Source: Prorocentrum cordatum (Eukaryota; Sar; Dinophyceae; Prorocentrales; Prorocentraceae). Taken from it: a DNA stretch of 64,000 nucleotides. The stretch spans positions 640,124 through 704,123 of the forward strand of contig CAUYUJ010020516.1 in assembly GCA_963575745.1 (NCBI GenBank), read 5' to 3'. The position numbers were made by a program, and so were the translations under genes. Positions 24,575 through 47,979 of the stretch are shown here, one piece after another. The notes under the pieces are model-generated. The model worked only from the letters and a program-made list of their open reading frames with translations. It was not told the origin of the DNA and did no database searches. The first letter of the stretch is position 1, and each line of letters begins with the position of its first letter.

Positions 24575-26766
24575 TTACGGGCGGGACGTCAGGGTACCGT
24601 CGTAGTGCGGGTCGTTTGCGTGTCGTGGTTCCATCATGGTGCCATCCCTGGTGATCAGCATCCTGCACTCGTCGAGGTTGTCGTCGTAGTGCCAATCCTG
24701 CGCATGTCGTGACGCATCCACCGCACGTTGGATGGTCTCACCGATGATGTCCCCGATCTCGTTGTGGCTGGTCGTGTGTCCGCCGGTCATAACAGAGGTG
24801 TAGTTGTCGCTGACCTTCACGTGCGGGTGCCTTCTGAGCATCTGGTGCTCGTCTATCTTCAGGTGTCGTATGGTCTTGTCAAGCACGATGGCGGGGGTTG
24901 CAGCTTCCAGTGTGGTGAACATCGCCGATATTATGTTGTACATGATGTGGTTGTCGCGAGTGCTGTTGCACTGCTGTTGTGGGTTGAGTTGCTGGTGTTC
25001 CCATGGGTGGTTCAGTGTGCGGCATCGGTTGTCGGCATGGAATGACTCGAGGTTGGTGTCGATGATATGGAGAGCAACGCGCCCATTCGCCATCTGCTCG
25101 TGAGCGCGTTTGTGCATGTCGTCGTAGTTCTCGCTGTCTGGTCGGATGATGTTAGTCTCGATGCTGGTATCGTGCAGGGTCACGTGCTGCTGGATGGTGC
25201 CAGGGAGTTCGTGGGCGGTGGTGGTGCTAGTGGTCGTGATCAAGATGATTGTTGGTGTTGTCCTGCTGCGTGTATTCGTCGTGATGCAGGTGTCAACGGT
25301 GGTGGTTGGTGTTCTGTTGGCTGCCGTGTGGGGTCCGCGTCGAGATTGGGGCGCTGGGGTCGGGGTCGTTGATGATGGGCCCGATAAGTGGTCCGTGAAG
25401 CTGAAGTGGTAGTTGTTCAGCGAAATCTTCAGGGAGGCCAACACGTCGACTGTTGCGTCGGATACGCCTTCCTTCCTCTCTGCTGGCTTCCACCCCGTCG
25501 GGCTTGGCCCTGTATCTGCTGGCACGCCAGGCGGCCGAGCAAGTTGCGGACGCTTTGACGTGCTTGATGAGCCTGTTGGCGGTGTGGCAATACTTCATGC
25601 AGATCTGGCAGGTCTCACCGCTGACGATGTTGCTGATGTCGTTGTCACTTTTGTGGTACGTGTGTTACGTGTGTACACGCTTGTTGTGGGCTGCTTTGTT
25701 CTTGAAGGTCTCCCCGCAATGGTAGCACATAAGTGGTTCGTGGTCGAGCTCTTCGTGTACGTCGTCAGCCTGGCATGGTGATTGCAGTAGTCCAAGTGAT
25801 TCGGCAGAGGTCGTAATAGTTGCCCGCCAAGTATCGCGTCTTGTCTGCTCAATTGTATGGTCGTTCGAGCGTTTGTAGGCGTGGGAAAATGTGGACTTGA
25901 GGTAGCTGAGGTCGTTCCTGGCCATGCTGACGAGCTCCGTGATGTCGGTGGGTGCTCTGTTCTGCCGGCTGCAGTCGCAGTGACGGCAGTAATGTTGGAG
26001 GTCGTTGTTGATTGCAGTCGTCCAAGCCCCGCTTCGCTCTATATCGTAGTCCGCTAGCGCTTGTAATTATGGTGGGCACTGGCGTGCGATTCGTGTCACT
26101 TGTCGTACTCGGAGTCGTCGTAGCCGCTCTTGTAGTGTCGGGAGTCCAGCTTTCTCGATGATCTGGTCGTTGGTTGGTGATGCGATTGTTGCGCATCTGG
26201 TCGTGGGTGATGCCTATGACCTGTCTGGCTGCAGATAGTATGCTGATGTCAGTCGGTTCGTGTCGCGTTGCTTGCTGGTGATCCAGGTGCCTGCGTTGAA
26301 CAGAAGAATCGAGTATCCAAACGCTTCGAGGTAATGTATCTTAGCTTTGGTAGTAACTGCTCGTCTTTTGAATAGCGTCTTCCGTAGTGGTCCCGTTGTC
26401 TGCCGAAGTGCGATGGACGGTGCTGCTACTTCCTGCCCGAGGCCGTTCCTGTCGTTGAACATCGCTCCAAGTAACTTAGTGCTCCTGGTGGTGGTAAACG
26501 TGAAACCCATGTCGGAGATACTACGGCCCTCTTGGATCATGGTGCGCGCGACTCGCTTTCCCACGACGGTGTTGGGGTAGACGGTGAATTTTGACTTGTC
26601 CGTGTTAATGGGCAGGCATCTGCTCAAGGTTGATCGAATCAAGTGCCCCCACATGGTTGTGGTGAGGTCGTGGATGTCGTTGCCGTTGTCGGTCATCGCT
26701 GCTGCCTTGACGTCGTCGACAAAAGACGCGGACGACAAGTGCTGGTCGCTGTCGTGCTGTTGAAAA
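24575..26766 (-). pseudogene. Non-LTR-type reverse transcriptase, 3' part (FVDD, zinc fingers)
   Basis: Reads from 26,766 downward. FQQHDSDQHL, then SASFVDDVKAAAM (motif C, about 26,720), NTDKSKFTVYPN (motif D region), STKLLGAMFNDRNGLG, TKAKIHYLEAF and LLFNAGTWI, the usual RT palm/thumb order. After frameshifts near 26,215 and 26,100 come SAARQVIGITHDQMRNN and AGLPTLQERLRRLRVRQV. Then CYHCGETFKNKAAHNKRVH (about 25,690) and, in another frame, TCQICMKYCHTANRLIKHV (about 25,610), two Cys/His clusters. A further frame (25,460-24,575) adds a long unrecognised C-terminal part. Its missing 5' half is at 47,974-49,390, beyond the inserted element. Confidence 0.8.
26761..26766. repeat. Target duplication TGAAAA, left
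   Basis: Same 6 bp as 47,974-47,979. It is RT coding sequence (TTTTCA on the minus strand, codons for Phe-Gln). Confidence 0.8.
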
Positions 26767-26802
26767 CTGGGCGGGCCACCAAGGGGGCAAGCATTATATT
26801 AA
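26767..26802 (+). repeat. Left terminal inverted repeat
   Basis: CTGGGCGGGCCACCAAGGGG followed by GCAAGCATTATATTAAG; pairs with 47,940-47,973. Confidence 0.8.
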
Positions 26803-26837
26803 GGGCCCGCGGTAATATGATGTTACCTTCCTGGGCC

Positions 26838-26945
26838 TGATGATGATGATGATGATGATGACGCTGGCGCTGATGATGCTGGTGATCACGATGACGATGA
26901 TCGTGGTGATGGTGATGATGTTGATGCCTTGTCCTCGTCCCCATC
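26838..26945. repeat. GAT-type microsatellite, left
   Basis: TGATGATGATG passing into GACGATGATCGTGGTGATGG. Similar tracts recur through the element at 29,375-29,550, 32,390-32,580, 32,815-32,930, 35,150-35,330, 42,290-42,410 and 47,830-47,930. Confidence 0.8.
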
Positions 26946-27184
26946 GTCATCGTCTTCCTTCTCCTCGTTCTGATCATGGCCCTCGTTCTCTCTGGCTGCT
27001 CACCATTCTCTGTATACTCCCCCTCCTCCCCCCTCCCTCATCCTGCATCATCTAACCCCTCCTCTTCGTGCTCCTCCTTCTTTTCCTGCTCCTCCTCTTC
27101 CTCGGATGCCCATCCTTATTATCCAACCCCTCCCCCAACCTTCACCATCCAACCTTCCTCCGCCTGTAGTTAAAAATCATAAAT

Positions 27185-29370
27185 GACAGCCGAAAAGTGA
27201 ACAAGACCCCCCCCCAAAAAAAAAAACAGGACCAACCAACACATACTAAGGACCGCGAGAAAAAGAAACAGGGCCACAAAGAGACCAATCAAACGAACCG
27301 AACATTCAACATAACCAAGCAAACCACTAAAAAGGCCCACAGAGATACTAAACAGGACCACCCCAAAAAGCAAACAGGACCACGCAACAAGTAAACAAGA
27401 CCAAAAGACAACTCAACAGGACCACGGAGAAACTGAACAAGACCATTCCCCTAAAAAAAAACAGGACCACGAAAAAAAACACCGACACACTAAGCAGGAC
27501 CAACCTCAAAAGTAATCAGGACCGCACAAACAGTAAGCAGGACCACGCCAAAACTAAACATGACCACAGAGAAACAAACAGGACAACAACGAACAATAAA
27601 CAGGACCACACAAACAATAAATCAAACCAAACAACAACTAAACAGGACCACCCGGAAAAGTAGACAGGACCACGCGAAAAGTGGACCTGGAGAAAACTAA
27701 ACAGCACCACAGAGAAACTAAACAGGACCACACGACAAAGTAAACAGGACCACGCCAAAAGTAAACAGGACCAGGAGAAAACTAAACAGGACCACAGAGA
27801 AACTAAACAGGACCATCCAAAAAAACACAGTAACAGGAGAACAGTGAACAGGACCAAAGTGAAACTAAACAGGACCACGCGGAGAAGTAAACAGGACCAC
27901 GCGAAAAGTCAACAGGACCTGGACAACACTAAACAGGACCACAGAGAAACTAAACAGGACAACGCGGAAAAGTAAACAGGACCTGGCGAAAAGTAACCAG
28001 GACCAGTGGAAATATACACAGGACCACGCAAAAAAGTAAACAGGACCACCCCAAAAAACAAACAGAACCACGAGAAAACTGAACAGGACCAGAAGAACAC
28101 TAAACAGGACCACAGAGAAACTAAACATGACCACCCTAAACAGGACCAGGAAAACATTAAACACCACCACAGAGAAACTACGCAGGACCACGCGAACAGG
28201 CATCAGGACCTGGGGAAAAAAAAACTAACCAGGACCACGGAGAAACTAAACACGACAACACGAAAAGTAAACAGGACCTGGCGAAAAGTAAACAGGACCT
28301 GGCGAAAAGTAAACAGGACCACAGAGAAACGAAAGAGGACCACACGAAACAGTAAACAGGACCACGCGAAAAGTAAACAGGACCAAGAGACAACTAAACA
28401 GGACCACGAAGAAACGAAACAGGACGACCCCCCCAGAACAACCAGGACCACGGAAAAACTAAACAGGACCGCGCAAGAAAGTAACCAGGACCACCCCAAA
28501 AAACAAACAGGACCACGAGAAAACTGAACAGGACCAGAAGAAAACTAAACAGGATCACAGAGAAACTAAACAGGACCACCCCAGAAACTAAACAGGACCA
28601 CGCCAAAAGTAAACAGGACCAGGAAACACCAAACACGACCACAGAGAAACTACGCAGGACCACGCGAAAAGCCATCAGGACCTGGCAGAAACTAAACAAG
28701 ACCACAAAGAAACGAAACAGGACAACACGAAAAGTGAACAGGACCGGGCGAAAAGTAAACAGGACCTGGCGAAAAGTAAACAGGACCACAGAGAAACTAA
28801 ACAGGACCACGCGACAAAGTAAACAGGACCACGCCAAAAGTAAACAGGACCAGGAGAAAACTAAACAGGACCACAGAGAAACTAAACAGGACCACCCCAA
28901 ACAGCAAACAGTACCACGAAAAAACGAAACAGAACCACGAAGAAAGTAAACAACACAACCCAAACCAAAATAAACAGGACCACGGAAAAACTAAACCAGG
29001 ACAACAGGAAAACGAATAAACATGACCACCCCAAAAAGTAAACAGGACCACGCCAAAAGTCAACCGGACCAGGAGAAAACTAAACAGGACCACAAGCAAA
29101 CTCAACAGGACCACGCGAAAAAGTAAACATGACCACGCACATGAATCAACAGGATCATGCAACAAGTAAACAGGACCGCGGAGAAACCAAACAGGACCAC
29201 CCCAAACAGTAAGCAGGACCACGTACAAACGTGAACAAGACCACAGAGAAACTAAACAGGACCAACCCAAAAAGCAACCAAGACCACGCCAAAAGTAAAC
29301 AGGACCACGCGAAAACTAAACAGGAACACGGAAAAACTAAACAGGACCAACCCAGAAAATGAACAGGACC
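27185..29370 (+). repeat. 21-bp satellite array, left (AACAGGACCAC)
   Basis: About 100 units of AAACAGGACCAC plus 9-10 variable bases. Tails fall into a few types: GCGAAAAGT, AGAGAAACT, GGAGAAAACT and CCCCAAAAAGC. The 21-bp period keeps frame, so Lys/Thr/Asn/Asp-rich heptad frames (KQDHRET) stay open. I treat these as repeat artefacts. The same satellite runs in the opposite direction at 42,705-46,320. Confidence 0.9.
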
Positions 29371-29747
29371 TGTCGCTGATGATGATTGTGCTGATGGTGA
29401 AGGCGCCGGGGGTGATGATGATCGAGGTGGTGGCGATACTGGTGGCGATGATGACTGTGGTGGATGTCGCTAGGGATGAGGATGAGGAGCGATGATGCCG
29501 ATGATGTGGACGCTGATGGCGACGACGATGATGGCGGCGATGACAACGACATGCTTTCCTCTCTCGCGCTGGCGCAGGCGGAAGGGGCCGCCCAAAACAG
29601 CGCGCGACCGCGGGACCACCGCCAAAGGCACGTTCACCAGCGGGGCCACCGCCAGAGGCCTCTACACTAGGCCACGCTTTCACTGTGGCTCCCGCGGGAG
29701 CCCCCACTGGCCTGTCTCGTGGTGGCGCAGGCGATGGGCGTTTCTCA

Positions 29748-31576
29748 TCAGCATCGCCTCCGGCTTCTTGGATTCGGCGCGCCGCTTCTTCGACGCAAAG
29801 ATCGGCCGTCGAAGGCGCAGGGCGCGCAGGAAGTGGCAGGAACACAACTGGCGCCCGCAGTTAAAAAATTCAATGGGACCTGGCCACCACCCCTGATATA
29901 CCGCGCCTCGCGCTCGACAGAGGCGGAGCCGCGCCCGACGTTCTCAAACTCACGCTTAAGAAGTGCGGTCTCGCCGCCCTCTTCCTGCAGGATCCGCTTG
30001 ATCCCCGCCGCCCGCAGGTTCTCCTCCCACTGGTTCTCGCGGCGCCAGTGCGCCCAGCGACGCGCGTCGCTGGTCTTCGCGAACTGGTAGCGCCAGAACT
30101 GCGCGCAGGTGAGCCTGGCAACGAAGGCATCAGGCAACCGCGCCCGCCAGCGAGCCCCCCAGTGCCGCACCTCGCCGTCGCGCCTGTTGAGGATGTGCAT
30201 GACGCATTCGTCGTCGGTGGCGACGTGCGCGGAGACCTTCGCGGCCTCGAAGGCCTCGGCCGTCAGCGCCGCCCAACCGTCGCCGAGCGCGGCATCTGGG
30301 TTTGCCTCGCACAAGGGCGCGCCAGAGGAAGCGCCATCACGGCCGCCCCAGACCGCCTCCCGCAGCTGCGCCCTGCAGTGCACATCTTGGGAAACAAGCG
30401 CGCAACGCCCCACAGCTGCCCGGCTTTGTCTGGGGCGTTGTTTCGGTGGGCGATGCCTGCGAGAAAAGCTTGCGCTGGATGGGGTCGGGTCGCAGTGAAA
30501 GTCGAGCGCCTCCCCCATGGCTCGCGCGCTGCCGAAGGCGCCAGTTCGCGCCAGAAACAGCGACGGCGTTTGCCTGCCAGCCATCCCTATTATCGCAGAA
30601 GTGCCGCTGCTTCCAAGTCTTTCTGACGATTCGGCGAAGTTCGGCCTTTTGCTCATCCGACAACCGAGCAATGCGCACCTCCGAGAGATAAGTCGTCAAG
30701 TCCACTTCGCTATCCCCGTCGTCGCACGCGCCAGAAGCAACGCCCGCGTCGCGCGGTCTCGCCCGGCTACTGGAGCGCGGCCTTGTCCGGCGTTCGGCGA
30801 AGCCCTGGGGCCCCCCCCGCTGGCTCGCCGCCAGCTCGCCCTCAACCTCTGGCCCGCTATCCTCGGCGTCGCCCTCCTGAGCCGGACCCTCAGCCGGAGG
30901 GGCGCCCCCAGCCGCAGCGGCTGGAGGCGCGGGGGCAGGTGGGGCGCCACGGAAGGGCAGCCGGCGCAGCGCGCGGAGCGTACCACGCGCCAGGCGGCGG
31001 CAAGCGCGCCACTGAGCCGAAGTAGATTGGCGGCGGCGGCGGCGGTAGCTGACGCGCTGGCACGCCTGGCGGCGCGGGCGTGAGCGGCGGCGGCGCCGGG
31101 ACATCATCGGGCACATGTGCCTCCGCGGGCGCCCCCGCTGGCGTCGGCCTCGGCGGCGCATGGCAGCTCGCGCGCGAAGGCGCCGCCGCCGCGCGGGCAC
31201 GACCGCCAGGGGCAGGTAGGAACGGCGCAGCGCGAAGGGCCATGGCCGCAGCAACCGCTGGTGCCGCCATTGACGTGGCCGCCGCCGCAGCCACCGCTGC
31301 CGGCGCTCCCGAGGAGCGCGCGTGCCCGCCGTAGGCAAGCTGCATCGGCGCAGCTGTCGAGGTCGAGGGCGCAGCAGCGCCGTGGCCACGTGCCTCGGTC
31401 GTGCTATTACTGCCCCCTGCAGGGCACCCCGAGGCAGCGCCATCGCTGCCAACGGCGACGCTGGCGCCGCCGCTCACGCTCGCCAGCGCGGCTGGAGCAG
31501 CAGCAGCGGACGCGCCAGAGGCGGCGTTGTAGTCCGCGGCGCGCGCGCGGGGGACCTCGTGGGCTGCTTCCGCCAA
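29748..31576 (-). pseudogene. Cargo coding remnant with FW..QFA..RRW module (a)
   Basis: The 5' part (31,576-30,900) is Ala/Pro-rich low complexity. Then, after a frame change, DDGDSEVDLTTYLSEVRIAR and LSDEQKAELRRIVRKTWKQR (about 30,740-30,610), a plausible helical segment. After further frame changes: EAAKVSAHVATDDECVMHIL, NRRDGEVRHWGARWR and FWRYQFAKTSDARRWAHWRR (30,250-30,040), ending in LQEEGGETALLKREFENVG. The last module resembles 33,120-33,692. Function unknown. Two copies of the cargo motif lie here (30,321 and 31,514). Confidence 0.45.
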
Positions 31577-31579
31577 CTC

Positions 31580-32208
31580 CTAAAACACCGCCTGCGCCAG
31601 GTGTTCTTGCTCCCGCGCGAGTTTGCACCCTGCGGCGGGGCCCCGCCGCAAGCTCAGCAGGCCCTTGCGGGAAGCTTTCACAGAGCACCCCACGATCATC
31701 GCCACGCGGGGCCCCAGCGAAAGACGGAAGTCAAATTGGCACTGGCGGTGCGACGCGGCTCGGCCGAAATTGTCGCACTTCGACTGGCCCAGCGCCTTCG
31801 TAGGTTTGCGCTGCTCCACCGTCACCACCAGCGGGCGGCGGCTCGCCGAGCGCAGGACACGGTGGATGTCGGTGCAATGTTGCAATGTTTTAGGCCCACC
31901 AGAGGTAGGGTCAAGACAGAAACTGCATCAAAACCTCCTGTCCCGTCCCCCCCCTGCACCGATGCAGCGTCTGCAATCGGCACGAGGAACGGCGGCGTCC
32001 ACCATTCCTGGAGGACGCTGCCCGCAGGTCCTCGCGCAGTGTAGAAGGACAACTCCTCCTGCAGCGACTTGATGGGCCGCGGAGTGCAACTGCGGTGAAC
32101 CTCGCCCGTGGCACGGATGGGGTACGAGGCTCTCCGGGCGACCCACCTGTCGGTGAGACTCCTGTCGAAGGCGGGGTCGTCGTCCGCGACAGGGGCAGCG
32201 TCGGCCAA
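31580..32208 (-). pseudogene. Cargo coding remnant
   Basis: A frame reading DDDPAFDRSLTDRWVARRAS, RPIKSLQEELSFYTARGPAG and LQEWWTPPFLVPIADAAS (32,190-31,960), then in another frame FDFRLSLGPRVAMIVGCSVK and AGCKLAREQEHLAQAVF ending in a stop at 31,580. Ordinary composition, no recognised domain. Upstream (32,210-32,935) is GGA/GAT repeat. Confidence 0.4.
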
Positions 32209-32329
32209 GCGGGCGCGGCGACCCGTGGCACGGTCGCGCGATGAGCCCCTGTTGCTCGAGCCTGCACGCGCCGCGGAAATCGGGCCCTCCGGCAGCAGGA
32301 GGACCGCGGAGGCACCCGACAGGAGGAGG

Positions 32330-32935
32330 AGCGAGGAGGAGGAGGACGACGAGATGGACTGCTAGGAGGAGGAGACTGACGAGGACGACGCAGGCGATGA
32401 TGATGACGAGGAGAAGGAGGAGAAGGAGGAGGAGGAGGAGGGGCACGAGGAGAGGCACGATCAGGAAGATAAGCATGATGGTGATGATGATGACGGGGAA
32501 ACTGCTGATTGCGAGGGCGCTGATGGCGATGATGAGGATGGGGGCGATCAGGATGACAATGGCGATGGTGCTGATGAGGAGGGGGAGGGGGGGAGGAGGA
32601 GGAGGAGGAGGAGGAGGAGGAGGAGGAGGAGGAGGAGGAGGAGGAGGAGGAGGAGGAGGAGGAGGAGGAGGAGGAGGAGGGGGAGGGGGAGGGGGGGGGG
32701 CAGGCGGGGCAACACGAGGAGGGAGGAGGGGAAGGACCAGGGGGAGGAGGGGGGCCAGGAGGAGCAGGAGGAGGACAAGGCAGAGCAGCAGCAGCATTGC
32801 TGTTCAGGGGGATAGTGCTGATGATGACAGCGATGGTGATGGTGATGTTGATGTCAGCGATGATGGCGATAATGGTGGGGTTGTCAAAGACACTGATTGA
32901 CGGCGAGAATGATGAGCATGATGACGCCGACGACT
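32330..32935. repeat. GGA and GAT tracts
   Basis: GGAGGA, GATGAT and a pure GGA run at about 32,598-32,680, then GATGATGACAGCGATGG. Separates two cargo coding blocks. Confidence 0.9.
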
Positions 32936-33119
32936 AATAGCATGATCATGCGATGTTTTTTTTTGCGCGCGCGGCGACGCCAACGCGAAGCAGCCCAGAG
33001 CTCTCTCGGCAAGGACAAGGCAGCGACAGAGGCAGCTGGGAGCCGCTGGCGAGCATGACTCCAACGCTCGCCTCCACCAGTGTGGCGCCACCGCTAGAGA
33101 CAGGTCTGCAGTCGCCCGA

Positions 33120-33692
33120 CTAATCCCCAAGACGCCGCTGACTCTCAAAGCGCTCGCGCTTGTGTTTGTGGACGAACGTGGGAAAGTCCATGTGCAACTT
33201 GTAGATGTCGTAGGCAGTGCACAACGGCCATCCGTAGTAATACATCTCTGCGAGCGCAACAATCGTTGCCGATTTGATCTCAAACGTTAGGCGCGCCAGA
33301 GGCAGCGCCGACCCTGCGGATCAGCAGCGCTTGGCCGCCGCGCCGGTCGAAAACCCAATGGGCCTCTGACGCGGTGAGCCACTGGTCGGGTTCCCCCAGT
33401 AAAGCCAGCGCCGCGAGGCGTCGGTCCTCGCGAACTGAGACCACCAGAACGCTGGGTGGCGGACGTCTTCCTCCAAAGGCAACCAGTCTTCCTCCAAATG
33501 CAACCAGTCGCCCTCCTCGATCAGTCTCGCCTCCCCGTCGTGCTTGTTGAAAAGGTGCTTCAAGTCATCGGGGGGGGGGGGGGGGGGCGCTCCCCGCGCG
33601 TCCCGTTGCGCAGCCCAAATGGGATGGTCTCGGTCCACGTACTCCACGCGCTGATCACCGCCAGAGGCAGGTTGCAGGCTCGGAAAAGCCAA
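33120..33692 (-). pseudogene. Cargo coding remnant with FW..QFA..RRW module (b)
   Basis: One frame from 33,692 with a single internal stop (TGA, about 33,321): DRDHPIWAAQRD, LFNKHDGEARLIEEGDW, AFWWSQFARTDASRRWLYWG, then after the stop RLTFEIKSATIVALAEMYYY, GWPLCTAYDIYKLHMDFPTF and VHKHKRERFESQRRLGD, ending in TAG. Aligns with module (a): N-(R/K)-x-DGE-(V/A)-R and FW-x2-QFA-(K/R)-T-x3-RRW-x2-W. Function unknown. The cargo motif occurs at 33,295 and 33,660. Confidence 0.5.
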
Positions 33693-33737
33693 GTCAAAGA
33701 AACGGTTGCCGTCGAAGCCCTCGCCGTCGAACTCACG

Positions 33738-34957
33738 TCAGAGCACGCCGAGGAAGTGCATCTCGGTCGACGCGAAGGCCCGCGCCACGGGAAACAGCTG
33801 GCCATCGTTCTTCTCGGTGTCGCTCGCGCGCGGGGTGCCAGATAGGAACTCGCTCGCCAGATGGGCGGGACAGCACTGGTCCTTCAACCTCGCGATCAAC
33901 TTCGACATGCGCCTCCGCCTGTCACTCGCCATGCGACTGATGCATAACCGCATGTGCGAGTCTTCGGGCCAGTCAAAGTCGCGAAAACGCACCTGACGGT
34001 GCACCTGTGTCGCTCGCGCCCGGAGCCCCCCCTGATCCTCCGCCGACGCGCCGTCGAGGGTCGATTGCTTCGCAACGCCGCGAAAAGAGCCAGAGGCAGC
34101 ACCGCGCGGCTCTTCCCCCTCAAATCTTCCTCGCCAGACTGAGATGCTAAGGCCTCGGATGATGCGAAATCGGTCGGGTCGCTTTCCTCCTGCGCGTCGC
34201 TTTCCTCCTTCGGCTCGCTTTCCTCCTTCTTGTCTGGAACAATCGAGTCCGCGTCCTCCAAATCCACCGCGTTCTCATGCTCGCGCTGAAGCTGACGCCC
34301 CGCATTCGCTCTTTCCTCGGGCGCGCCAGAGGCGGCGCCGGCAGCGGCGGCGGCCCAATCCTTGTCCTCCGCGACCGGAAACACATCGGCCGAATCCAGC
34401 TCCACCAGGTCGAAGAACAACAGCCGCGCAGCCTTCGTTTCGGCCTCTGTCCAGTTTGGGCCTCGTGGGGGCCCACCGCAACGCAGACATCGACGAGTCC
34501 TTTGCCGTGGAAATCCCCATCGCGAACGCCCTCCCAGGCACGGCGGGGCTGAGTGACAGAGCGAAGTCGCTCTGGTCACCTGAGCTTGCATGGCCTCGGT
34601 AGTCCAGCACACGGTCCTGGAGCACATTCCGCATGGATGGCGTTGATCGTCGCCGACAGTGGATGCGTCTTCGCCTGTGCCATCGCGCGCCGCATGCTCA
34701 CGGTGTGCTGAAACATCTCGCCAGAGGCAGGAGTCCTGATACACGAGCAGAGCATCCGATTCCCCAATTGACTTGATTCCCATTCCCTCCGCAATTTTCT
34801 GAGCGAAGGGAACGCACGCGACTTCCCGATGGACCGCCCAAGGCGGTGGCGCGCCAGAGGCAGCGCTTTGCAAGATACAGCCTGCGAGCTTAAGGCGCAT
34901 GTGCACGCCCCCGGGAAACAGCTCCGAAATCGCTGTAGGCATGCCCAACTTCTTCAT
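33738..34957 (-). pseudogene. Cargo coding remnant, acidic protein
   Basis: From 34,957: MKKLGMPTAISELFPGG, GCILQSAASGAPPPWAVHRE, CVPFAQKIAEGMGIKSIGES and DALLVYQDS. At the cargo motif (34,720) the frame changes to MFQHTVSMRRAMAQAKTH. Further on FDLVELDSADVFPVAEDKDW, LEDADSIVPDKKEESEPKEE and DPTDFASSEALASQSGEEDL. After another motif (34,089) a new frame reads VRFRDFDWPEDSHMRLCISR and KLIARLKDQCCPAHLASEF, ending at 33,738. The acidic stretch is nuclear-protein-like, but I recognise no fold. Confidence 0.45.
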
Positions 34958-35340: not shown

Positions 35341-35355
35341 GGTGCACGCGACCTG

Positions 35356-37576: not shown

Positions 37577-38432
37577 CCTTTGCGCAAAGAGATGCGATGT
37601 CGCTCCCCTTTCTGCAGAGAGCCAAATCGTGGCCTGCAAGGAGCCGAAATGTCGCTTCCCTTCTTGCAAAGAGCCGGGCCGTCGCTTCCCTTTTTTGCAA
37701 AGGGCCGAGTTGTCGCCTCCCTTTGGCCAGCGCCGTCGACAACTCGACTCCCCAACTAAAGAATTTCGCAAGTTACAAAGGCAACTCATTCTGCAAAGGG
37801 CTCCCTCCACACTCCGCCACAACTCCAAGATCCATAGCGTGTCAAAGTTCAGCCTGCAACTCGCAGGTCCATATTAATGATTCTCTATGTTATAAGGGCA
37901 GCGATTTTCAAAATCCGCTGGCCTTGAAATGAGATGCCCTTATGTTGGAAACATTCGTTGTGACCACTGTATGAAATCAATAAATGCCCACAACTCATGG
38001 TCCCAAAATGATGAGTCCTCTTGTTGTCAGAACAGCGAATGCTGAGAACCGCTGTCCTTAATAACATCATCCTCCTGATCCTCGCCGCGCGTTGTTGCGC
38101 TGAAGTGAACGCGCTGGAGATGCTGGAGTTGCGGCGGAGTGTATGGGGGCCCTTTGCAGAATGAGCTGTCCTAATGACTTGCGAAATCCTAAGTAGATAA
38201 TTCGAATTGTCGACAACGCTGGCGAAAAGGGCAGCGACAACTCGGCTCTTTGCAAGAAGGGGAGCGACAACTCGGCTCTTTGCAAAAAGGAAGGCGACAA
38301 CTCGGCTCGTTGCAAAAGGAACAGTGACAACTCGGCTCCTTGCAAACAACAACTCGGCCCGTTGCAAAAAGGGAAACGACGGCCGGCTCTTTGCGCGAAG
38401 GGAAGCGACAACCCGGCTCCCCGCGCAAAGCA
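37577..38432. mobile_element. Fold-back element with tandem subrepeats in both arms
   Basis: Two arms of about 385-445 bp around a loop near 37,963-37,985. Outer parts carry about 30-bp subrepeats: CTTTGCAAAGAGCCG-GTTGTCGCTTCCC in the left arm and its complement, CAACTCGGCTCTTTGCAA, in the right. Inner parts pair as GCGCCGTCGACAACTC / AATTGTCGACAACGCTGG, CCTTTGCAGAATGAG and TTATAAGGGCAGCGATTTTC / its diverged complement. Long inverted arms built of tandem subrepeats are characteristic of Foldback-type transposons. No ORF and no certain target duplication. Lies close to the middle of the 21-kb element. Confidence 0.75.
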
Positions 38433-38579
38433 GGAATAGGGGATGAGAAGAAAAAGGAAGAAGCAGGAAATCAAGGATAGGGGCATGGTAAATTACGAGT
38501 AGGACGAATTCGATGTTGGTGATGAAGATGTTCGAATAATTAAAATGACGATGCAGTCAGAGTGCAAATTGATGTTCGT

Positions 38580-39123
38580 TGAGCGCGATGGCGAGGAGAA
38601 TGTCAGTGGCGACCCGCCGGCGCTGAGAACCTTCGGCCCCGCTTCATTGAGGACCTTCCGGGCTGAGACAGCCCGGCCCGCCGCGGCCCGGAGCGCGACA
38701 AAGGAAACGCCGCTAGAGGCAGGCGCGCCGACGGCGCCCACGACGATCCTGCTCCCAGGCGCCGAACGCCACGACGTAGAGAAACGACGCCGTCATATCC
38801 ACGCCAGCGGCGAGCGACGCCGCGTCGTGGAGGATTGAAAGATCTGGGACGACAACCAGATATTGCCTCCGCGCATCTGCGTGGGCCCGTCGCTTCTCTG
38901 GACCCCCATCGCTCGCGCGTCCCCGGTCGCGCCAGAGGCAGTGAGCGCCGCCGCCTTGCGGCGCGGAGATGGCCCCGCCGGCGCCGCGCGAGCGCCCCGA
39001 CAGGCGCCGAGGGCAACGCCTGGAGGTTTCAGGAAAACGCCGCCTGGCGCGGCCGGGGCCTTCGTCGCGCCCGGGGCGTCGCGCAAAGGTCGCCGGTGAA
39101 ACTTCCCCATCGCGTCGTTCCAC
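38580..39123 (-). pseudogene. Cargo coding remnant, low confidence
   Basis: Minus-strand frames include MTASFLYVVAFGAWEQDR, VPDLSILHDAASLAAGVD and ASGVSFVALRAAAGRAVSAR with cargo motifs at 38,712 and 38,931. Much of the block is Arg/Ala/Gly-rich and frames change often. No domain recognised. Confidence 0.3.
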
Positions 39124-39129
39124 CGAGTG

Positions 39130-39900
39130 CTACGCCCCGTGCCTGCGCCAGGATGCAGCGCTGCACTGGCAGCGCGCGCGCTTGCACAGCGCAGCCGAGC
39201 AAGCGGCAGCGAGAACGCCAACAGCGGCGCGGCGCAGAGGGCCTCTTGACGAAGCGGCCCTCTTCAGCGTGGCCGCGCGTGTGGCGGCAGGGTTATGATG
39301 GCCAGAGCGCGTGCCGTGAAGTTGCCGCCAGAGACAGGCGCACTTTCTAGAAGAAGGCGCAAGCTCATCTCTGGGCGACGAAACACCATCCACCTCGGAC
39401 TCAGCGACCGTTCGTGGGCCGCGTAGTTTCGCGATCAGGCAATCGTCGAGGAACTCTACGTTAGCTGCGCGATGCCCAGCTAGCTCGTTGCGCAAAAAAA
39501 GCAAACTCGCGTTCCACAGTGCACTCGCCGTCTTCACTGGAAATATTGAACCTGACGAGGTCACGGAGGACGTGAGACGCACCAGCCGAAAGCCTCGGAC
39601 ACGCCGCGTGCCAGAAAGCGTCGTCAAGCAAGCGCGCCCACGCTTGCTGGTTTGTCTTCTTCGCCATGGGCTGTCCTGGGCAGAATTGCGTCACCGCGCA
39701 TGGGATGACGTCGTTATACTGCAGCGCATTTGTAGTCTCATCGCGACCGAGCGCCGCGGCTACCTGCCCCACGCCTCGGAGCATAAACCGACGCGCGTTC
39801 AGGCGGGGCAAATCCCCGAACCATTTCCGAAAAAGGCGCCGATCGAACATCGCCAATGCCGAACGGAAATCGTGGAGGATAATCAGCTAGCAGTCGCCCT
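39130..39900 (-). pseudogene. Cargo coding remnant
   Basis: From about 39,890: LIILHDFRSALAMFDRRLFR, KWFGDLPRLNARRFMLRGVG, ETTNALQYNDVIPCAVTQFC, TNQQAWARLLDDAFWHAACP, HVLRDLVRFNISSEDGECTV and EREFAFFAQ. Near 39,490 the frame changes to NELAGHRAANVEFLDDCLIA and ESEVDGVSSPRDELAP. Good composition; not recognised. Probably the same gene as the ORF immediately upstream at 39,905-40,579, which ends in a stop at 39,905 in a different frame. Confidence 0.45.
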
Positions 39901-39904
39901 TTCG

Positions 39905-40579
39905 TCAGACACGCCACGTTCCGCACTCTCTCTCGAGTAATTCTTCCTCGCGCGCTTCCCGAGGCCCCCCAGTGCAGCGCGGGCCCCCCCCAGCCAAGAA
40001 AAGGCACTTGCGCCGAAGATTTGACATCGCGGCGGTCGCAATGAAGCCAGCCGCCCCCCCCTGCGCGCCCACGCGCGGCAGCGGTTCGCCCCGCGCGGCC
40101 GCCGACGAGGCCGGGGCCGCGGCGGCGCCAGAGGCAGCCTGCATGATAGTCTGGAGCACGCGCCCTTCCAAGAAGACAGCGTCCAACGTATCCGCCATGC
40201 AATCGATCTGCGGTTGCGATGAAGCAATGTCGCGGTTGGCAACATCGAACAAGCGCAATAACCAGTTGCAAATAAAGCCCCGATCCGCCGACGCGCCAAC
40301 AGCCATGCGACATTTAGTGCCGAGCTTTCTCAATGCTGCCAGGGCTCGCCCCTGCAAAGCCTTGTCGCGACGTCTGTCCGACGATATATAGGCTAGCGAA
40401 GTCGCTGCTGGCAACAAAATCAGCGCAATTTTTCCCCCACTGGCCCCGCCGTGGAATCGAACCGTCGCTTGGCGAACGATGAATTCCGCACGAGGCAGGA
40501 CGTTGTCCTCTTGAATGGCCGCGAAGAGGTTGCTCCACTTGTCGCCGTTCATTATGTCTGGCGCCGGAGTGTCTGCCAT
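39905..40579 (-). CDS. Hypothetical protein, 224 codons
   Basis: The longest uninterrupted cargo frame with a true ATG: MADTPAPDIMNGDKWSNLFA, AIQEDNVLPRAEFIVRQATV, GGKIALILLPAATSLAYISS, ALAALRKLGTKCRMAVGASA, DRGFICNWLLRLFDVANRDI and QIDCMADTLDAVFLEGRVLQ, then TIMQAASGA (the cargo motif, 40,127) and an Ala/Gly-rich tail. Mostly helical. No family recognised. The next frame downstream may belong to the same gene after a frameshift or an intron. Confidence 0.5.
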   Translation of the reverse strand: MADTPAPDIMNGDKWSNLFAAIQEDNVLPRAEFIVRQATVRFHGGASGGKIALILLPAATSLAYISSDRRRDKALQGRALAALRKLGTKCRMAVGASADRGFICNWLLRLFDVANRDIASSQPQIDCMADTLDAVFLEGRVLQTIMQAASGAAAAPASSAAARGEPLPRVGAQGGAAGFIATAAMSNLRRKCLFLAGGGPRCTGGPREAREEELLERECGTWRV

Positions 40580-41097
40580 CGAAAAGCGCGCCGCGCCTCG
40601 CCGAGCGCGTCGTCGCAGCGCAAAGACTGGCTCGCGATGCGCATGGCCGGCGCCGGACCGCGCATCACTGTCAAAAGAATGGGGGAGAGCTCGCGAGCAG
40701 CCAGGAACAGTGCTCGCCGCTCCGGTGCAGCACCATCTGCTGACAAACTGGTGACGGACCTTGTGACGTGCGACTTTAGCGCTTCATCGCGCGCCAGAGG
40801 CGCTGCTTTCCTTCTGCCCCTCCGCAATGGCGCGCATAACTTCGCCAAGAAACTGCCGAGCTGCTTCGCGGCCGTCACGGCGTGATCCTCCTCGAACTCG
40901 GCTGCGTGGCTCTTCTTGCAACTGAGGATGCCGAGCACGCCTGCGCGGCAGTGACCTGGGGCCCCGATGCTCCGAGCGACGCCGCGCCCCCCGCCATGAG
41001 GGGCAGGCGCACCAGCGCGATATCTCACGATCTTGCGGTTGTTCGACTCGTCCAGGCAGGGAAAGAGATATCGACGCGGCGCTTCGCATTGCATCAC
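40552..41097 (-). pseudogene. Cargo coding remnant
   Basis: Contains HAAEFEEDHAVTAAKQLGSF, LAKLCAPLRRGRRKAAPLAR, DEALKSHVTRSVTSLSADGA, ERRALFLAARELSPILLTVM and RIASQSLRCDDALGEARRAF. The cargo motif at 40,793 is read as PLAR. It overlaps the start of the next ORF by 28 bases in another frame. Not recognised. Confidence 0.4.
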
Positions 41098-41124
41098 GGG
41101 CCTCCACGCGCAGAACCTCGGCGA

Positions 41125-42451
41125 TCACGCAGAGCTGCTTGCGCCTGACTCCCCGCATTCCACGCCCCCGCGGACAGGCCGCGGGGAACTGCTCCTGCCG
41201 CGCGCGAACGCACCTGCGAAGAGATGGCGTCTCAGAGAGCAGCGCCCACGCATCCCTCCATTCCGTGGCCGACGGCGCGTTTTTCCCGCAGAAGCGCAGC
41301 GTCTGCCGCCGCAAAAGCAGCATCGCGCGCAAGAGGCTGCGGCTGACGCGAGAATTCTTCGCGGCAAATCTTGGCATGCTTGACTCCCGCTACGCGTCGG
41401 TGCGCCGCTGACCTCTGACGACGTTCTATCTGGAATATGCCGTGGAAGCCTGACGCGGGTCTGACCTGGAAAGTAACAAGTTTGGAGAACCTCCCCGCAG
41501 AGCACTTCTGTCCTGAGGCCGCAGCCTTTGCGCGCACTCGGCAACCCAATCCCCGCATGCAGCGATGCGCACCTGCTGCCAGCCACGACGAACCATTCGG
41601 CAGGAGGGATAGCGCCTCGCACGTCTTGCGACGTTTGTGAAAATCGCAGATTATACAGAACGCCCTGCAAGGAGCATGCTCGACGAAGTGCTGCGCATCG
41701 GCGTCGGCCCCTGAGGGCGCGCGCGGGCAGACAACCGACTAAGACCCAAGCCTCGTCGATGATCTACCGGATGGGCCCCTTGCCCGCCCCCCCCCCGCCG
41801 CGCGACGCCCTTCCGGGACTGAACCGCCTTGTTCGGGGATCTCCTGGCCCAGGTCAGGCAGGCCTGCAGAGTGCTGCGAGCTTCTGCAGGGCGAAGGACC
41901 CTGCAGGATCCTGCGCTCGAACCCGGGTCAATGCGACCCTGGCCCTGCAGGATCCTGCAAGATCGGGCGCTCTTGCTGGCCCCCGTTGGCATTGACCCCC
42001 GCCTCGAGGCCCCCGACTTGTCCTTTCCCCGCGTCGCCGGAGGCAGAGCCTTCCGCCTCGCCAGAGGCAGAAGTATCTTCTTGGCAAAAGACGCCCCGCT
42101 GCGGGCTAGTCCGCCACGCCCCCGCGACGGCCACGACTGCCCCACAGTCGCTGCCGACTTCTTCTTGAGACAATCCCCAAATCGAAAAAGAAGCGGCGCC
42201 AGCATCGCCCCGAGCACAACGCCCCCCGTCGCCGTGCACCCCAGATGCTTGACGCTCGGAACGTGCCAAAACGGCTGCATGCCAACGGCGAGCTCGATGA
42301 CGATGGCGACGGTGATGATGACGGTGAGGATGCTGAGCATGATAGCGAACGCACTGATGTCACTACTGATGGTGGTAATGTTGATGGCGCGCTGAAGGTG
42401 ATGATGTTGCTGGCGCCCATCAATGGTGGCGACGAAGGTTGCCCCTTCCAT
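41125..42451 (-). pseudogene. Cargo coding remnants with CCTGCAGGATCCTGC repeat
   Basis: Between 42,450 and 42,290 the frame passes a GAT tract that translates as a hydrophobic stretch; I do not take this as a membrane helix. 42,270-42,150 reads QPFWHVPSVKHLGCTATGG and MLAPLLFRFGDCLKKKSAAT. Two close copies of the cargo motif (42,036, 42,060) and two copies of CCTGCAGGATCCTGC (about 41,908 and 41,945) follow. 41,640-41,125 has Arg/Ser/Cys-rich frames with TSSEVSGAPTRSGSQACQD. Weak coding evidence overall. Confidence 0.3.
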
Positions 42452-42704
42452 CGTGCCGACGAATTACCTCAAAAGTAGAATAGGCCACCGCGCAAAATAA
42501 AACCGAACCTGGCCAAACTGAGCGCAGGTGAGGTGGTCCTTCTAGCTTTCTGCGACGATGCGTTTGCTGTTGGTGCGAAGATCCTGAGCCGGACTGCGCG
42601 CAGGATCACCCCGAAAGGAAGCAGGGCCACTTCGCAACGTGATATCATGCCCGATGGGCTGCGCAGTCGCGTTGCTTTTTTTAACGTTCGCTCTTATGTA
42701 TTAC

Positions 42705-45700
42705 TCGCGGCGTGGTCCTGTTTACTTTTGCGTGGTGAGCCTGTTTACTTTTCGTTGTGGTCCTGTTGAGATATCGCGTGGTCCCGTTTAGTTGTTGGGG
42801 TGGTCCTGTTTAGTGTTTCGGTGGCCTTGTATGGTTCTTGCATGGTCATGTTTCCTTTTTGGGGTGATCCTGTTTTGTTTCTCTGTGATCCTGTTTAGTT
42901 GTCGCCTGGTCCTGCTTACTTTTTGGGGTGGTCCTGTTTAGTTTCTCTGTGGTCCGGTTTAGTTGTCTCCTGGTCCTGTTTACTTTTCGCGTGGTCCTGC
43001 TTACTCTTTTGCGGTGGTCCTGTTTAGTTTCTCTGTGGTCCTGCGTAGTTTTCTGTTGGTCCGGTTTACTTTTCGCGTGGTCCTGTTTGCTTGTTCGCGT
43101 GGGTCTTTTTAGTTTCTCCGTGGCCACGGTTTGTTGTCCCCAGGCTCCGTTTACTTTTCGCGTGGTCCTGTTTACTTTTGCGGGTGGTCCTGTTTAGTGT
43201 CTCTGTGGCCCTGTTAAGTTTCCCCCTGGCCCTGTTTGCTGGCTGGGGTGGTGATGTTAAGTTTCTCGGTGGTCCTGTTTCAATTTTCTCCTGCCCAAAC
43301 CTATTGTTTTGCGTGGCCAGGTTTACTTATTGATGCGATCCTGTCTAGTTTCCTGTGGTCCTGTTGAATTCCCCCCCGGTCCTGTTTATTTGTGTCGTGG
43401 TCCTGTTTACTTTTTGCGGGGCCCTGTTTAGTTTTTCGCGTGGACCTGTTGAATTTACCCGCGGCCTGGTGTACTTTCTCTCCAAGCCCCGTTTACTTTG
43501 CAGGTGGTCCAGTTTACTTTTTTTCCGGGCGGTCCTGTTTAATTCCTCTGCGTGCCTGTTTAGTTTTCTCCTGGTCCTGTTTACTCTCTTTGGGGTGGCT
43601 TTGTGTAATTTCTCTGTGGCCCTGTTTAGTTTTCTTATGGCCCTGATTGCTTTTCGCGTCGTCCTGTTGACCTGTTGGGGTGGTCCTGTTTAGTTTTCTG
43701 TGGCCCTGTTTAGTTTTCTTCGGGCCCTGTCTAATTGTTTCCTGGTCCTGCTTACTTTTTGGGGTGGCCCTGTGTAGTTTCTCTGTAGCCCTGTTTAGTT
43801 TTCTTCTGGCCCTGCCTACTCTTCGCGTGGTCCAATCTAATGTTTTGCGCAGTCCGTTTAGTTTCTCCGTGGTCCTAGTCAGCTTTCTCCGGGCCCCGTT
43901 AACTCCTCGCGTGGTCAAATTTACTTTCCGGGGTGGCCCTGTTTAGTTTCTCTGTGGTCCTGTTTAGTCTTCTTCCCCTGGTCCTGTACACTGTTTGGGG
44001 TGGTCATGCTTAGCTGCTCTGCGGCCCTGTTTCAATTTTCTCATGGCCCCGTGTTTTTTTTTGTTGCGTGATCAGGTATACTTTTTTGGGTGGCCCTGTT
44101 TCGTTGTCCGCGGTCCTGATTCGTTTTCCCCTGGCCCTGTTTATTTGTATGTTCGTGGTCGTGTTTAGTTTTTGGGTGGTCATTTTTAGTGGTCGGTGGT
44201 CTTGGTTAGTTTTCTCCTGGCCCTGTTGAATTGCGTCGTGGTCCCGTTTGCTTTCCCGGGTGGTCCTGTGGAGGTTCTCTGTGGTCCTGCGTGGTGTTCC
44301 CCTGGCCCCGTTTACTTTTCGCGTGGTCCTGCTCACTGTTAGGCGTGGTCCTGACTGAATTCTCTGTGGCCCTGCTTAGTTTTCCCCTGGTCCCGTTTCC
44401 TTTCCCCGGTGGTCCCGTCTACATTCTCCGCGCCTCTGTCCAGCGTTCTCCTGGTCCTGTTTAATTTTCGGAGAAGTCCTGTTTAGTTTCTTCATGGTCC
44501 TGTTTAATTGTCCCCTGGCCCTGTTTACTGTTGCGTGGCCCTGTCTACTTTTTGGGGTGGCCCTGTTTTGTCCTGTTCCTGATCCTGTTTAGGTTTCTCC
44601 TGGCCCTGTTTAGATTCGTCGTGGTCCTGCTGCCATTTTTGGGGCGGTCCTGTTTACTTTCTCCGTGGCCCTGCTTAGTTTTCATCTGGTCCTGTTATCT
44701 ATTTGCGCGGTATTATTTGCCTGTTCGCGTGGTCCTGTCTAGTTCCTCTGTGTTCCTGTTTAGTTGTCCCCAGGCCCTGTCTACTTTCGCGTGGTCACGT
44801 TGCTTTTTTGGGTGGTCATGTTTAGTTGTCTGTGGTCCTGTCTACTTTCACCCTGGCCCTACATGAATTCTGGGGTGGTCCTGCTCAGTTTCCCTGTGGT
44901 CCTGTGTAGTTTGCTCATGGTCCAAGTTGTTTTTTTTGCGTGGTCCTGATTACTTTTTTTTTTTTTTTCGACTGGTCCTGTTTAGTTTTCTTGTTCTCTT
45001 TAGTTTCCTCCTGGTCCTGTTTGTGTCTCTGTGGTGGTCCTGTTTACCAGCCCTGTGGACCTGTGTATTTCTTGCAAAGTCATGTTTCCTGTTTGGGTTG
45101 GTCCTGCCTACTTTCTCCCTGGTCCCATTTACTTTTTTTGGCGTGGTCCTCTTCGCGTTTTCTGGGGGCCCTGCTTAGTTTGCCTCTGGTCCCGTTTAGT
45201 TTCTCTGCGGTCATGTTTAATGTTCTACTGGTCCTGTTTACGGTGTTGGTGGTCATGTTTACGTTTTTGGGTGGTGCTCTGTAGTTTCTCAGTGTTTTTT
45301 TGTGGTCCAGCGTTCTGTTTTGGGCGGCCCTGTGCAGTCGCTGCGTGATCCTGTTTAGTTTGTTTTGCGTGATCCTCTTTCCTCGTTGGGTTGATCCTGT
45401 TTAGTTTCTCCCCTGGCCCTGTTTACCTGTTGGCGTGGTCCTGGTAACTTTTTCGGGTGGTCGTGTTTGATTCCTCCGTGGTCCTGTTCGGTTTTCCCCT
45501 GGTCATGTTTACTTTTTTTACGCGGCCGTGTGTTTGCATTTTGCGGTGGTCCTGTTTAGTCTCTACGTGGTTCTGTGTGGTTGTCTGGTGATTATGCTTC
45601 CTTGGTGGGTTGGTCCCGTTGAGTTTCTGCGTGGCCCCGTCCAGTGCTCCTGGTCTTGTTAGGCGCGTGCGTGGTCCTGTTCACTTGTTGTGGGTGGCTC

Positions 45701-46320
45701 TGTTTAGTCTCTTCGTGGTCCTGATTTGTTGTTGCGTGGTTTTGTGTGCTTTGTGGTGTGATCATGTTTCGTTTCTCTGTATGCTTCTTACTTGTTGCGT
45801 GGTCCACTTTGCTGGTTTTGCGCGGTCCCGTTTACTTTTTTCTCGTGGTCCTGTTTCGTTTCTCGGTGGTCCTGTCCAGTTTCTCCGTGGTCCCGTTTAG
45901 TTTTCTCGTGGTCCTGTTCACGTGTTTCGGTCGTCCTGTTTAGTTTCTCTGCTGTCCTGTTCACTTTTTCTGGTCCTGTTTACTCCTCGCGTGGACTTGT
46001 TTTGTTTCAAAAGTGGTCCGATTTAGTTTCTTCGTGGCCCCGTTTAGTTGTTGCGCGGTACTGTTTAGTGTTCACGTGGCCCTGTTTGATTTATCCGTGG
46101 TCCTGTTTACTTCTCTCGTGGTCCTGGTTACTCTTTGGGGTGATCCTGTTTAGTTTCTCCGTGGTCCTGTTTCGTTTTCACGTGGCCCTGTTTACTTTGG
46201 GGTGGTCCTGTCAACTTTCCGGGTGGTCCTGTTTACTTGTGGGGTGGCCCAATTGTATTCTTGTTTGGTCTTTGGTGGCCCGGTTCAATTTTGGTTTTGT
46301 GGTTGGTTACTTTTGGGATG
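42705..46320 (-). repeat. 21-bp satellite array, right (GTGGTCCTGTTT), inverted
   Basis: About 160 units of GTGGTCCTGTTTA plus a variable tail (GTTTCTCT, CTTTTCGC, CTTTTTGGG or GTTTTCTCCTG), the reverse complement of the unit at 27,185-29,370 with the same tail classes. Phe/Leu/Val/Ser-rich frames are artefacts. Confidence 0.9.
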
Positions 46321-47743
46321 GCCCTGCTGAAAGTGGCGGCGCTGATGGCGGCGGCAACGACGAGGATCGCGACCGCGACCTGGCGCTGGCAACGGCGACG
46401 GCGGCGATGACGGCAACCATGGTCGCTGGCCACGACGATGACAACGAAGATTGCGAACGTCTTCTCCCAACCGAGCGTTTCCGCAAGCGCATGTCAAGCG
46501 CGGCCAAAAAATCATCGTCGGCAGACGCATCGCCGGCTGAGCGAGCGAACCAGGCCCTCCACGAATGCGCAGCGCACGCGGCGGCGCGCGCCGCGGAACG
46601 CCGAGAAACCTCTGCGATAACAGACGCGCCAGAGCCGGCGCCGCTGGCCACCTCTCGCACTCGAGCGCTCCTCCGCTCAACTCGAATGCTCTCCCATGTG
46701 GCGCGTGGCGCGCCAATGACAGCGCCGCGGCGCGCCGGAAGCAGCATCTCTGGCAACCGTCTAGTTCGAGTCCGAGCTCCCCTCAGCCTCGCCCCCCTCC
46801 TCGTCGTCGCCGCCCTCGGCGACTGGCATCGACGACCGGCGCGCCGCGCTGGTCAAGCGGCGCGCTTTGTCTGCGAACCCCCAGATGGAATATGCGCCAG
46901 AGGCAGCGCGCGAAGCGAACGTCGCCTGTGAAACGACCGGGGCGGCCACGTGCGTCGCGTCACCATCGGGCAGCGCGCGCGTCCTGGAGGGAACGGACAA
47001 AGCGGCGTTAAACAGATGCCACACGCGGTCATCGTTGGACTGCTGGAGCGCCTCGCCCATAGCAGAGCACCACGTGATCACCGCCGCGCGCCCCGCGAGC
47101 GCGGTGGCTCGATCGCGCAAGCCCCAGGCTTGCCAGGCTGATCGCGCTGGGCGACCTCGGCGTCAACCACCCAGACTGGGAGAGGCGCGTCGAAGGAGAG
47201 GCGCCGCGAAGGCGCGTGACTGGAAGAGAGGCGGTGCGTCTCCTCCGACCGCGCGCCCATGGCGCCCTCCAGCTGGCTCGCGCAGACGTCATCGATGTCC
47301 GAGCAAATCGGATACGACGCCCTCGCCGTCCCCGCTGCCTCGCACTGCTTGGCCCGGGAGAAGCTCGCAATCAGGTTGTCGTAGTCCATCGCCTCGCGAA
47401 GCGCAGCGAGGTTTGCGCCGGAGGCAGCTTGAGCGATGGCCAACGGCGGAATCATAAAGCACTTCTGCGGCAACGCGAAGGGCAGCTCGCGCTGGCGCTC
47501 CTGCCAGAAACCGCGCGAAGCATGGTCGACGTAGTTCTTCACTTGGCGCGCCCACTCCGTGAGCTGAGCGGGCTGCCTCGACGCGCTCACCGTCTCCAGG
47601 AGTTGCGTGGTGCGCAGCGGGGCCGCGGGTGCCTGAGCGAGAGGCGGCGCGCCAGAGGCAGCGGCGGGCGCAGCGACAGGCGGGCTGGGTTTCTGCGCCG
47701 GTGGCCGGGCCTGAGCTGCCACACCTGGCCTCTTGCCCGTCAT
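46320..47743 (-). pseudogene. Cargo gene, 5'-most; hypothetical protein
   Basis: ATG at 47,743 gives MTGKRPGVAAQARPPAQKPS, a Pro/Ala-rich head, then LLETVSASRQPAQLTEWARQ, VKNYVDHASRGFWQERQREL, FALPQKCFMIPPLAIAQAAS, REAMDYDNLIASFSRAKQCE and ICSDIDDVCASQLEGAMGAR. Near 47,120 the frame shifts to LRDRATALAGRAAVITWCSA, EALQQSNDDRVWHLFNAALS and YSIWGFADKARRLTSAARRS, then an acidic EGGDDEEGGEAEGSSD. From 46,750: GASVIAEVSRRSAARAAACA and DDDFLAALDMRLRKRSVGRR. It ends where the satellite begins. Cargo motifs are in frame as AASGA at 47,651, 47,417 and 46,896. Function unknown. Confidence 0.5.
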
Positions 47744-47762
47744 GGCGGCCGCTTGTTGTGAT

Positions 47763-47795
47763 GGTTCGGGGGGGGGGGGGGGGGGGGGGGGGCGC
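47763..47795. repeat. Poly-G run
   Basis: About 26 G in a row just upstream of the first cargo ATG, followed by the right GAT tract (47,830-47,930). Could form a G-quadruplex. Confidence 0.8.
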
Positions 47796-47939
47796 GCGAA
47801 AAGCAAAGTGATCGCGTCCGAGAGCCGAAACCGCTGATGATGATGCTGACGATGATGATTGCTGCTAGTGATGTGATGACGGCGATGGTTATAGGTGGTG
47901 GTGGTGACGATGATGATGACGACGGCGATGTTGCAAATT

Positions 47940-47973
47940 CTTAATATGATGACCCCCCCGTGGTGGCCCGGCC
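47940..47973 (-). repeat. Right terminal inverted repeat
   Basis: Complement reads GGCCGGGCCACCACGGGGGG then GTCATCATATTAAG; pairs with 26,767-26,802. Confidence 0.8.
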
Positions 47974-47979
47974 TGAAAA
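47974..47979. repeat. Target duplication TGAAAA, right
   Basis: Same 6 bp as 26,761-26,766. Confidence 0.8.

Follow-up and report, generated by a model that had tools for sequence, protein, structure and literature searches.

To our knowledge, eukaryotes have few giant DNA transposons that carry several genes. Transposons of the hAT superfamily (Hermes, Ac) have terminal inverted repeats (TIRs) and a transposase with a D, D, C/DxxH, E order of motifs, and they duplicate 8 bp of target sequence. Polintons, which are comparable in size to the element described here, likewise carry TIRs and several genes, and they duplicate 6 bp. The C/DxxH motif is common to hAT, P, MuDR, Kolobok and Dada; within this group, Kolobok is marked by TTAA duplications and RR..YY termini, and KolobokP duplications measure 3-5 bp (PMC9587614). 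Chapaev (CMC) elements, with termini CAC..GTG, have a 3- to 4-bp duplication (PMC4079192), and very large algal DNA transposons are represented by the enlarged En/Spm elements (16-20 kb) of Chondrus (PMC6431247). The ends of dinoflagellate introners bear short inverted repeats together with direct repeats of 3-5 bp; in Amoebophrya, introners are short and have no transposase genes. Here we analyze a stretch of 64,000 nucleotides (nt) from the dinoflagellate Prorocentrum cordatum (assembly GCA_963575745.1, contig CAUYUJ010020516.1, positions 640,124 to 704,123 of the forward strand; hereafter the window), in which a reverse transcriptase (RT) gene is interrupted by a giant insert with inverted ends.

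We conclude, with a probability of about 0.88, that the insert belongs, as a decayed copy, to a family of giant, self-contained DNA transposons of the cut-and-paste type, 21-34 kb in size, that is, a mobile genetic unit and neither debris nor an ordinary intron. The family is apparently undescribed so far. Its members carry five genes (A, B, E, C and D), of which B encodes a putative DDE transposase. The element resembles hAT elements in its TIRs and, by motif, in the D, D, C/DxxH, E series of B. It differs from them in its length, its five genes, its CTGRCTGG terminus and the absence of a hAT Pfam domain. Because the 8-bp duplication was looked for and 4 bp was found in five of five copies, we refrain from assigning the element to hAT. 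With Kolobok and KolobokP it shares the C/DxxH group and the short duplication, but none of the five duplications is TTAA and the termini read CT..AG. The duplication length also recalls Chapaev, whereas the termini are CTG..CAG; the likeness noted to the Chondrus elements is one of size. Like introners, the element ends in inverted repeats and 3-5-bp direct repeats, but it is 21 kb long, holds five genes and lies in a decayed gene. The remark in a preliminary description of the window that the architecture matches no family familiar to its author is in keeping with our comparison, since the element shows neither the 8-bp duplication of hAT, the TTAA of Kolobok, the CAC terminus of Chapaev nor the 6-bp duplication of Polintons.

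Results

The window has a GC content of 0.61 by base counts (published for the P. cordatum genome, 59.7%; PMC10666404), and its sole run of N (21,401-21,500) falls outside the insert. The interrupted gene is a decayed RT of the long interspersed nuclear element (LINE) type, identified by eye from motifs A/B/C. Pfam RVT_1 matched it at E=0.049, under its cut-off, and no match was returned for the shorter joined piece. As the preliminary description had it, the RT frame on the minus strand breaks off at the right junction and continues from the left one. Joining 26,766 to 47,980, with 21,213 bp taken out, restores a continuous frame (...PMPPAPRHF-QQHDSDQHLSSASFVDDV...). At least three frame changes were seen by eye within ~500 nt upstream of the insertion. 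In view of these changes and the sub-threshold Pfam match, the interrupted RT is now a dead retroelement.

The hexamer TGAAAA is present at both junctions (26,761-26,766 and 47,974-47,979). The two ends of the insert are inverted repeats of ~35 bp with a local score of 34, confirming an earlier claim, and when the window was scanned with each end, a score of ≥26 was reached only by the two ends themselves. Among 198,865 random pairs ~21 kb apart, the TIR score was reached by 273 and a 6-bp direct repeat was present in 1,771; no pair combined the two. Under a looser null (random 100-bp stretches), the TIR score is attained in 1.0% of pairs. Inverted 9-mers that match exactly and have a 6-bp repeat close by are fairly common, occurring in 1,341 of 77,852 window pairs; a simple-repeat filter reduces them to 58, but also discards the element's own pair. 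By itself, the evidence of the preliminary description was suggestive; the matter is settled by other copies in the genome.

We searched 4.128 Gb in 21,875 contigs. The left end gave 27 further matches at 26 distinct places, and the right end at least 44 further matches at 38 distinct places (40 scored of 373 candidates). To compare termini, 25 left-end and 15 right-end places were fetched. Most of these ends share the terminus 5'-CTGRCTGG(G/T)CCACCA, several departing from it by one or a few bases; the strict pattern matches 22 of the 25 left-end places. Alignment with the ends of other copies places the termini of the window element at 26,767 and 47,975; the apparent 6-bp duplication of the preliminary description arises because its additional TG belongs to the right end of the element. 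An 8-bp duplication (TGAAAACT/TGAAAATG), favoured at first, was dropped once other copies had been compared.

Pairs of ends 5-40 kb apart and flanked by duplications, which had been proposed as a check, are present elsewhere in the genome, and their duplications are 4 bp. Both ends were located in the window copy (duplication AAAA, 21,209 bp) and in those on contigs C2603 (GAAG, 23,430 bp) and C16805 (ATGC, ~30.5 kb). In the C14302 copy (GAGG, ~34 kb) the right terminus is mismatched in its last base, judged by eye, and the right end of the C15099 copy (CTGG, 34,363 bp) was fetched with the left flank already known. In none of these five two-ended copies does the duplication extend to 5 bp, and the duplicated bases have no fixed sequence. 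For a sixth candidate (C17857) the partner end was not found in the 10 kb fetched, and C8002 has a short end pair without the right terminus. The further copies, with the same ends and genes, uphold the earlier view that the RT was hit by a single insertion, that of a very large TIR element.

Ends and gene B also occur together. On contigs with both, side and strand agree in 10 of 10 pairs of right ends and B matches, and in six of eight pairs of left ends and B matches, one of the six being 67 kb apart. Some loci appear to be duplicated. On C19382 (L038), two left ends with identical flanks lie 2.17 kb apart with the B match on the wrong side, suggesting a tandem duplication. The right ends L059 (C15055) and L060 (C13619) have identical flanking sequence, suggesting a segmental duplicate or one locus assembled twice.

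Pfam gave no convincing match in the 108 of 137 insert open reading frames (ORFs; ≥75 amino acids) that were scanned, the other 29, of low complexity, and the arrays not being included. With one ORF and two composites as queries, protein searches returned 37 homologues in five families; one of them, P0022, is annotated as Prorocentrum cordatum. Mapped by tblastn, the homologues define five minus-strand genes in the insert, and none matches the window outside it. None of the five genes was recognised by Pfam, PHROGs or NCBIfam; a homologue of gene E contains a weak F-box-like stretch (E 0.12). The order A-B-E-C-D is identical, as is the strand, in all four copies read inside (window, C2603, C16805 and C14302). 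Gene A retains just the first 250-300 codons in the window copy and in C2603. It is longer in C16805, where matches in three frames, interrupted by a gap, extend to P0021 residue 622, and in C14302, where they extend to P0020 residue 425. P0034, on a single 1,272-bp contig, is a fusion of the C-terminal part of family A with family D, and so provides independent evidence that families A and D belong to one unit. Note that the A part of P0034 accounts for the wide D spans in C16805 and C14302, and that some gene C matches in these copies land on gene D. The cargo had been called decayed: this holds for the gene copies in the window, whereas the five families are conserved in a fixed order across the four copies read inside.

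No transposase had been recognised in the insert; gene B nevertheless has the features of one. Its genome search gave at least 84 matches (83 scored of 1,187 candidates), counted as B loci from the B sequence alone; 22 of 84 are stop-free and lie in open frames of 1,286 codons or more. Three of these were read completely and span 1,286, 1,337 and 1,328 codons between stops. Since other loci keep such long open B frames, the family has probably been active recently. The motif series comprises a D in SLDES, a D in SADG, DPAH ~30 residues on and an E in ECxVERD, and is complete in L079 and L080. A loose N-terminal C..C...H...H pattern fits L079, L080, L081 and P0027. In Foldseek comparisons of low-confidence AlphaFold models of two B homologues, Hermes ranked first among 350,542 PDB chains for both, and a helix-rich stretch precedes the E in the B model. 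Local similarity to Hermes around the E was found for P0024, P0037 and L081 (p 0.002, 0.0045 and 0.015). These features point to B as a putative DDE transposase working like this group. No hAT Pfam domain was detected in the B homologues or in four B frames of 1,058-1,337 amino acids.

In the window, inverted arrays of a 21-bp satellite bracket the gene block from D to B. The arrays of C2603 are likewise inverted, its left array being split by unrelated repeats. In C16805 the right-hand arrays are in direct orientation relative to the left array, and C14302 has a single array, on the left, that passes the filter. Array orientation thus varies across copies, and the inverted arrays of the preliminary description, present in two copies, are no fixed feature. 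Phased A-tract curvature of the arrays was considered and rejected, as no clear phase was seen. Outside the element, a satellite at 60492-61574 is related by eye to its 21-bp arrays. Inverted 30-bp repeats (GAGCCGAG.TGTCGCTTCCCTT) at 37635-38420, between E and B, occur in C2603 as well.

A 15-bp motif (GCTGCCTCTGGCGCG) is scattered through the genes of the element in all three reading frames, nearly always in the sense direction. Counted over 14 bp with ≤2 mismatches allowed, the sense/antisense numbers are 25/0 in the window element, 29/0 in C2603, 65/2 in C16805 and 29/0 in C14302, together 148 sense and 2 antisense; note that the sites of the window and C2603 are mostly common by descent, so that the copies are not independent. 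On both strands of the whole window, 37 matches were observed against 1.77 expected; 12 of them lie outside the insert, including eight on the plus strand within two satellite regions (50.5-51.0 and 59.0-60.1 kb). The three reading frames of the motif yield the peptides AASGA, LPLA and CLWR, which occur in the 37 homologues 48, 18 and 4 times (expected 0.15, 1.0 and 0.07). The motif core CCTCTGGCG is found in five fetched B loci (L079-L083), with 4-10 sense and 0 antisense copies each. Mean identity at the motif sites was 0.89 in the window (19 sites) and 0.90 in C2603 (21 sites), compared with block identities of 0.84-0.88. This is about the identity obtained by picking little-mutated sites, and extra selective conservation of the motif was rejected.

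Elsewhere in the window, a possible DIRS-like element is suggested by ORFs at 11546-14586 on the plus strand, which by eye resemble an RT product containing RNase H and, after it, a tyrosine recombinase (HDVRRG...); two of these ORFs gave no convincing match to Pfam. Large blocks are directly duplicated at 87-91% identity (21506-23471/53356-55354; 49385-50579/57938-59073; 57424-57657/62200-62432). The features of the element and of the interrupted RT are collected in Table 1.

Table 1. Coordinates of the element, its parts and the interrupted gene (window positions)
Feature	Position	Strand	Basis
RT frame, 3' part (QHDSDQHL...FVDD)	26217..26762	-	reading frame
Target site duplication AAAA, left, 4 bp	26763..26766	.	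terminus from left ends at 25 places
Whole element, 21,209 bp; genes on minus strand	26767..47975	-	comparison with other copies
Left TIR, CTGGGCGGGCCACCAAGGGGG...ATATTAAG	26767..26803	+	27 further genome matches to 26761-26900
21-bp satellite array (ACTAAACAGGACCACGCAAAA)	27190..29370	+	
Gene D, decayed; family P0029-P0035	29686..31915	-	tblastn
25 dispersed copies of GCTGCCTCTGGCGC, ≤2 mismatches	30319..47662	-	all on coding strand
Gene C, decayed; P0023, distant paralogue of D	33153..35017	-	tblastn; homologues 29-36% identical
Gene E, ~550 amino acids; one stop, one frameshift; N-terminal C..C cluster	35552..37223	-	
Gene B, decayed; putative DDE transposase	39118..42205	-	tblastn, motifs
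21-bp satellite array, inverted relative to left array	42712..46247	-	
Gene A, first 250-300 codons only, one frame change	46839..47746	-	tblastn
Right TIR, CAGGCCGGGCCACCACGGGGG...ATATTAAG on minus strand	47939..47975	-	end alignment
Target site duplication AAAA, right, 4 bp	47976..47979	.	terminus from right ends at 15 places
RT frame, 5' part (...APRHFQ)	47980..48232	-	reading frame

Discussion

We propose that the B protein would bind the TIRs, bring the two ends together and carry out insertion with a stagger of 4 bp. The products of A, C, D and E may be accessory proteins that travel along or regulate the process. The satellite arrays would be spacer DNA common to the family and the sense-strand motif a mark of it. 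At the present locus the element entered an RT, and both are now decayed.

Several observations weigh against this interpretation. Both disagreeing pairs of left ends and B matches are on contig C19382, and in C16805 six of 22 gene E matches are on the opposite strand. Others concern B as a transposase. The first D is G in L082, and DPAH reads GPAH in L081 and L082. Even at full length, B had no Pfam or PDB-sequence match supporting a transposase, and PHROGs and NCBIfam searched with B pieces returned no transposase match. Both B models are poor (mean predicted local distance difference test score 38 and 39), with Foldseek E values of 0.044 and 0.48. Comparison of B with Hermes was not significant over the whole sequence (p 0.49) or around the second D (p 0.33), the hhalign score of the two is under the median of 60 shuffled Hermes sequences, and the similarity around the E is missing in L079 and L080 (p 0.45 and 0.51).

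Alternatively, the insert could be an introner-like intron of giant size, removed from transcripts of an expressed RT as a GC-AG intron with the frame kept. A junction of this kind, CATTTTCAG/GCCGG ... TTTTCAACAG/CACGAC (splice sites at the slashes), can be read in frame by eye. According to the P. cordatum genome paper, introns average 4,709 bp, 51.4% of donors are GC, and introners were searched for as introns with inverted repeats of 8-20 nt and direct repeats of 3-5 nt close to their ends (PMC10666404), a form that the element fits. However, no working gene needs splicing here, because the RT frame is already broken upstream of the insertion, and the five internal genes are unlike the content of introners. 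In this genome 79.7% of acceptors have a G after them (AGG; PMC10666404), whereas the junction here reads ACAG/CAC. We therefore rejected a functional intron and consider this explanation quite improbable.

Size, TIRs and multiple genes would also suit a Polinton-like or other integrated virus with TIRs. Against this, the duplication is 4 bp and not 6 in every two-ended copy, no domain of PolB, integrase, capsid or packaging ATPase is among the Pfam families listed for the 108 scanned ORFs and 10 homologues, and four queries (families B, E, A and D) found no relatives in viral contigs; on these grounds a viral origin was rejected as very improbable. Host genes, satellites and a LINE might, finally, have become nested in several independent events, with ends that match by chance. 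The related arrays outside the element at 60.5-61.6 kb, noted by eye, and the unrelated repeats within the left array of C2603 are compatible with such a history. Yet four copies, each inserted elsewhere and flanked by its own 4-bp duplication, share their ends and all five genes in one order, and we give independent events next to no probability.

A limited survey of the open-access literature on dinoflagellate DNA transposons, dinoflagellate hAT elements, large hAT elements and giant transposons revealed nothing alike, and the available sections of the P. cordatum genome paper mention introners and transposable elements, not this element (PMC10666404). The transposon family described here may form a new DDE superfamily and at the same time be the missing autonomous mobiliser of short dinoflagellate introners, but the two together appear unlikely. 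The traits behind the former idea are the 4-bp duplication, the CTGRCTGG ends, the transposase of ~1,300 codons, the four accessory genes and the sense motif; the latter is raised because the inverted repeats and 3-5-bp direct repeats of introners have the same form.

With this family, a 4.1-Gb alga is seen to contain a multi-copy giant element with long open transposase-like frames. It offers candidate transposase copies for assay and a concrete, testable engine for genome expansion in dinoflagellates, and it may bear on what moves the introners of their genomes.

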